Below are positions 49,535-49,866 of a DNA stretch of 64,000 bases, one piece after another; position 1 is the stretch's first letter; every line of letters begins with the position of its first letter. The stretch covers positions 682,001-746,000 of the forward strand of contig NZ_CP032548.1 in NCBI RefSeq assembly GCF_003867015.1. The letters are read 5' to 3'. A program made the translations under genes and the position numbers. The notes beneath the pieces were generated by a model. It did not search any database. It saw only the letters and a list, made by a program, of their open reading frames with translations, and was not told where the DNA came from. This stretch comes from Tenacibaculum singaporense (GTDB lineage Bacteria; Bacteroidota; Bacteroidia; Flavobacteriales; Flavobacteriaceae).

Positions 49535-49542
49535 CAAAAATA
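49535..49542 (-). promoter_or_regulatory. -7 element of the TPR gene
   Basis: Minus-strand TATTTTTG fits TAnnTTTG. It overlaps the farther possible start codon (TTG at 49537), which supports the downstream ATG with a leader of about 57 bases. Confidence 0.45.
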
Positions 49543-49603
49543 CAGAACAAAATTGTTAAAATACTATTAAAAGGAGGGCTTTTTTGAAAAGCTATGTAAC
49601 ATT

Positions 49604-49620
49604 TTGGCACGAACTTTGTT
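49604..49620 (+). promoter_or_regulatory. Sigma-54-type (-24/-12) promoter
   Basis: TTGGCACGAACTTTGTT closely matches the sigma-54 consensus TTGGCACG-N4-TTGC: GG at 49606-49607, ten bases, then GT (consensus GC) at 49618-49619. It points to the 47-residue gene whose ATG is 32 bases downstream. No other site like this was noticed in the window. Confidence 0.6.
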
Positions 49621-49651
49621 TTATTAGTAAAACAACTAAACAATGTAAACT

Positions 49652-49795
49652 ATGAGAAACTTTACGACACAATATGAAATAGCGAAGCAGAATGCAAATG
49701 AGTTTATGAGAAAAGGTCAAATACCTCAATATTTTGAAGCTTTGTTAGAAATGAATAAATACAAGAGATTAATGGTAGCAGTAGTTGCCAACTAA
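49652..49795 (+). CDS. 47-residue small protein under sigma-54-like promoter
   Basis: A short open frame starting MRNFTTQYEIAKQNANEFM and ending KYKRLMVAVVAN. It is hydrophilic and mostly helical in appearance, with no signal peptide or cysteines. It is framed by a sigma-54-like promoter 32 bases upstream and a strong terminator downstream, and codon use is like its neighbours, so it is likely a real gene. Function unknown; a stress or regulatory peptide is possible. It is divergent from the TPR gene and convergent with serS. Confidence 0.6.
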   Translation: MRNFTTQYEIAKQNANEFMRKGQIPQYFEALLEMNKYKRLMVAVVAN

Positions 49796-49827
49796 ACATA
49801 TTTTTTTCAATGGGGATTGATTAATTA

Positions 49828-49866
49828 AAAATCCCAAGCATCGTAATTGAGGCTTGGGATTTTTTC
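49828..49866. terminator. Terminator between the small gene and serS
   Basis: ATCCCAAGC (49831-49839) pairs with GCTTGGGAT (49852-49860) around 12 bases, with six T on the plus strand and A-rich sequence on the other side, so it can serve both convergent genes. Confidence 0.88.

Follow-up and report, generated by a model that had tools for sequence, protein, structure and literature searches.

The block at 49595-49630 of the window, by which is meant the whole 64,000-nt stretch of Tenacibaculum singaporense DNA analysed here, probably holds two interleaved promoters, one for sigma-54 (TTTTGGCAYR-N4-TTG) and one for a stress-type ECF sigma factor (GTAAC-N17-GTCT), which would share one G and one start. 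From the sequence we infer that the site is actually used by both holoenzymes. With less assurance, though still on balance, it is suggested that selection keeps a 26-bp element legible to both sigma-54 and ECF, sigma families unrelated to each other, as a signal integrator serving the new small stress protein, and that lineages repeatedly resolve it to a single promoter. The features concerned are collected in Table 1.

Table 1. Features of the putative dual promoter and of the small gene downstream (window coordinates).
Feature	Position	Strand	Basis or remark
Upstream AT-rich element TTGTTAAAATACTATTAAAA	49553..49572	+	columns -50, -48, -37 and -36 at >=95% conservation
ECF-type -35 element TGTAAC	49595..49600	+	conservation; kept at exact N17 spacing where GG is lost
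Sigma-54 -24/-12 element TTTTGGCACGAACTTTGT	49602..49619	+	GG 49606-49607, N10, GT 49618-49619
ECF-type -10 element GTTT (GTCT in sister strains)	49618..49621	+	its G is the -12 G of sigma-54
Predicted common transcription start	49628..49630	+	conserved TA 49628-49629; positions of -12 G and -10 GTC
47-aa small protein gene MRNFTTQYEIAKQNANEFMRKGQIPQYFEALLEMNKYKRLMVAVVAN	49652..49795	+	homologues, dN/dS, AlphaFold2 helical hairpin
Intrinsic terminator hairpin	49827..49864	both (small gene +, convergent serS -)	folding

The frame behind this block begins 31 nt downstream of the 17-mer TTGGCACGAACTTTGTT, read at 49604-49620. The preliminary description had made its proposal depend on conservation of frame and promoter in related genomes, and both were borne out by the comparison: the 47-codon frame is carried by more than 100 Flavobacteriaceae loci, and the sigma-54 element is intact in 93 of 102 (at least 10 of the 11 tested bases), typically lying 27-33 nt upstream of the ATG. 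Of the 59 nearest genomes, 31 had a homologue of the small gene, and every one of these belongs to its own genus; homologues were also found in 14 of the 237 genera sampled across the family, and as 97 candidate stretches in named genomes, chiefly of Tenacibaculum and Polaribacter. Where neighbours were inspected, the gene mostly had a divergent TPR protein gene on one side and a convergent serS on the other. The frame measured 44-48 codons in the relatives that were read, synonymous change far exceeded amino-acid change (pS 0.62 vs pN 0.15), and the median dN/dS was 0.21 over 1180 pairs; as judged from these sequences, it is under purifying selection. AlphaFold2 gave a mean pLDDT of 95.5, with helices at residues 2-21 and 24-46, so that the product is confidently predicted to be an alpha-helical hairpin.

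That the peptide has no recognised family, as had been stated earlier, held in profile searches, since no convincing match was obtained in Pfam, NCBIfam or PDB. The PDB profile matches were short and partial only, and fold comparison returned generic helical hairpins only (best E 1.5). The protein would represent a new, undescribed family of 47-residue helical-hairpin proteins. Its regulation and shape allow the guess that it probably serves in the cytosol as a small factor against envelope or proteostasis stress, and that it probably acts by partner binding or self-association. It is very improbable that the unit is a conserved small RNA or leader in which the frame is incidental: such a reading would suit a short unit with a strong terminator, but the preponderance of synonymous change, the frame length kept in relatives and the confident fold prediction all argue against it, and the lack of an Rfam match for the unit is neutral in this respect.

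The strong terminator on which the preliminary description closed the unit is only in part what it had seemed. The hairpin has a 13-bp outer stem, a folding energy of -20.2 kcal/mol (z -6.0) and a U-rich 3′ flank, and it was missing from the listing of a simple terminator scan. It is real, yet it is not a defining part of the unit, because the convergent serS shares it and most relatives have other sequences in its place, only close relatives having kept it.

The GG, exactly ten bases and GT described earlier at 49606-49619 are present as stated, and on comparison of the loci this block is a conserved sigma-54 promoter, the TGGCAY-N5-TTGY context with GG and G(C/T) ten bases apart being found at 49602-49619. 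Among 59 non-redundant loci, in which the block TTGTAACATTTTGGCACGAAACTTGTCT is conserved, GG...TTG was the best-conserved portion: GG and TTG scarcely vary, and GG, C and TTG each reach 98-100%. The rpoN gene was found in all 23 family genomes tested and in 34 of the 36 genomes of the genus, and the host genome holds rpoN and four strong activators (AAA+). A motif match by itself is weak evidence for a promoter, loose matches being near chance in the window and in the genome. With up to two mismatches allowed, the sigma-54 motif had 26 matches in the window vs 23 expected; TTGGCAYRN4TTGY occurred six times genome-wide vs three for the reversed pattern, and sigma-54-like sites showed no overall excess in the genome. 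The site nonetheless stands above chance, because all 24 genomes having the extended block GTAACNTTTTGGCAYN5TTG carry a single copy of it, always at this locus, and because the frame is conserved.

Sigma-54-like sites were also seen in intergenic positions 28-52 nt before other host genes (L031, L032, L057, L058, L063, L067 and L068). The genes behind them, named by eye, are of envelope type (outer membrane, TonB-like, lipoprotein, BON-like). As for heat-shock genes with such sites, only lon was recognised in the sampled part of the genome, and it had none.

The preliminary description proposed sigma-54 control, and the conserved -24/-12 element, rpoN and the activators agree with it; it overlooked a second, ECF-type code, GTAAC-N17-GTCT, in the same block. 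In the 59 non-redundant loci TGTAAC is conserved at 88-100% per base. The same code appears to be in use elsewhere in the host genome, judging by its spacing and placement. In 1.2 Mb, a sample of genome stretches chosen in part around known matches, GTAAC-N17-GTC gave 33 matches, 17 of them intergenic, vs about 12 and 1 for other spacings; in the 0.8 Mb picked without reference to known matches, spacing 17 again came first with 17 matches, 6 intergenic, vs 5-11 and 1 for spacings 15, 16, 18 and 19. Over the whole genome TGTAAC-N17-GTCT occurred 14 times vs once for the reversed pattern, mostly 17-97 nt upstream of open reading frames. An AAC-type -35 and a GTC-type -10 at a fixed 16-17 bp, recurring regulon-wide, were thus found in the clade and in the genome, the copy in the window having one mismatch. 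The genes following ECF-type sites (L176-L189), which would form a regulon, include those for a GFO_1090-like protein (the match being weak) and for two membrane proteins, a small one of 51 aa and one of 166 aa. One ECF sigma factor was found in the sampled part of the host genome, and its own upstream region had no ECF-type site obvious by eye.

The mismatch of the window strain is a C-to-T change in the ECF -10, which reads GTTT; GTCT stands in sister strains whose protein is identical. The ECF -10 is probably weaker in this strain for that reason, and sigma-54 may therefore dominate there, so that a reading by sigma-54 alone may be close to complete for the window strain. Across the whole clade, control by sigma-54 alone is unlikely, because the ECF-type code accounts for both the GT at -12 and the upstream TGTAAC. 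The GT stands in place of GC because the GTC of the ECF -10 overlaps the -12 G of sigma-54, and where the ECF code is lost the base after that G becomes A, T, C or G.

The distribution of the two codes bears on how the block is to be read. When 102 loci were placed on a serS tree, 78 had both codes, 15 sigma-54 only, 6 ECF only and 3 neither. In at least six lineages GTAAC and GTCT were lost jointly while GG...TTG was kept (L081, L082/L167, L103/L110, L130, L151, L170/L192, L197 and L199). Within sigma-54-intact loci the two losses were coupled (Fisher p 1e-9, a value not corrected for relatedness), and phylogenetically independent pairs on the tree gave 5.4 same and 0.1 opposite of 6, a borderline result (median p 0.03-0.06). 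A promoter of sigma-54 alone, with TGTAAC and TCT in an accessory role, for instance as a contact for an activator or of IHF-like kind, would suit the survival of the best-conserved GG...TTG in these lineages and the deviating ECF -10 of the window. It is considered unlikely, since five ECF-only loci in three genera (g42, g146 and g223) hold GTAAC-N17-GTCT at the exact spacing without GG, the spacer being otherwise unrelated, and gene starts elsewhere in the genome are enriched in this code at this spacing.

The existence of such loci, together with the enrichment of the ECF code over a genome in which sigma-54-like matches are not, would in turn favour an ECF promoter alone, the GG-N10-G in its spacer being accidental or serving a repressor or other DNA-binding protein. 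This is less likely still: the spacer bases TTTTGGCA and the TTG are at least 95% conserved at the locus and are retained where the ECF bases are gone, intergenic matches before genes peak at the GG-N10-GY spacing (small counts), and similar sites precede the other host genes mentioned above. The expectation that ECF-only genomes lack rpoN was ruled out, as all of them have it; loss of GG is therefore not explained by loss of the sigma factor. In three related, partly incomplete genomes (L027-L029), the small gene lies beside serS with both codes gone, and rpoN remains.

Under two interleaved promoters, the sigma-54 and ECF polymerases would exclude each other at the 26 bp, because both would occupy the same bases. 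The sigma-54 polymerase, waiting in closed form, would need an activator to set it off; the same transcript could be started by the ECF polymerase whenever its own signal is present and the site unoccupied. A short DNA segment may in this way join two stress signals at a single start.

Promoter classes of both kinds are described in the same bacterial family. According to the start sites mapped in Flavobacterium psychrophilum, as given in the main text, the sigma-54 regulon comprises chaperones, envelope stress and gliding genes, and an ECF motif has a CGT box; these classes, SM4 (sigma-54) and SM6 (ECF), resemble the present codes and likewise concern envelope and proteostasis genes, but among the promoter selections of the main text no gene stands under the two motifs at once (PMC9723704). 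Overlapping sigma-54 promoters are rarely documented, and the literature cases found pair sigma-54 with sigma-70. In enterobacteria, glmY and rpoEP2/P3 are likewise served by two sigma factors including sigma-54 at the same start and are linked to envelope stress; the partner there is the housekeeping sigma-70, whereas here it would be an ECF-type code whose -10 shares a base with the -12 (PMC6358824). At competing sigma-54/sigma-70 promoters of Escherichia coli, a bound sigma-54 polymerase can occlude another at an overlapping site; in that case sigma-54 acts as a repressor at experimentally found sites, whereas here both codes are conserved at the promoter of one gene (PMC4551910). The natural series of loci with both codes, sigma-54 only or ECF only offers a test bed for exclusive polymerases at one site and for sigma switching in evolution. 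A small-protein family not described before is also gained, its regulatory setting defined, in a family of bacteria of environmental importance.

Both promoters are predicted to start near 49630, as placed by the -12 G and the -10 GTC, and the TA at 49628-49629 is conserved at 86% and 98% in the 59 non-redundant loci. Further upstream, the conserved AT-rich TGTTAA-ATTAAA element (TTGTTAAAATACTATTAAAA) may be a site for an activator or of UP-like kind, or it may belong to the promoter of the divergent TPR gene. The probable promoter of that TPR gene is TATTTTTG at 49535-49542 on the minus strand (TATCTTTG in relatives), a sequence in agreement with the Bacteroidetes -7 box TAnnTTTG.
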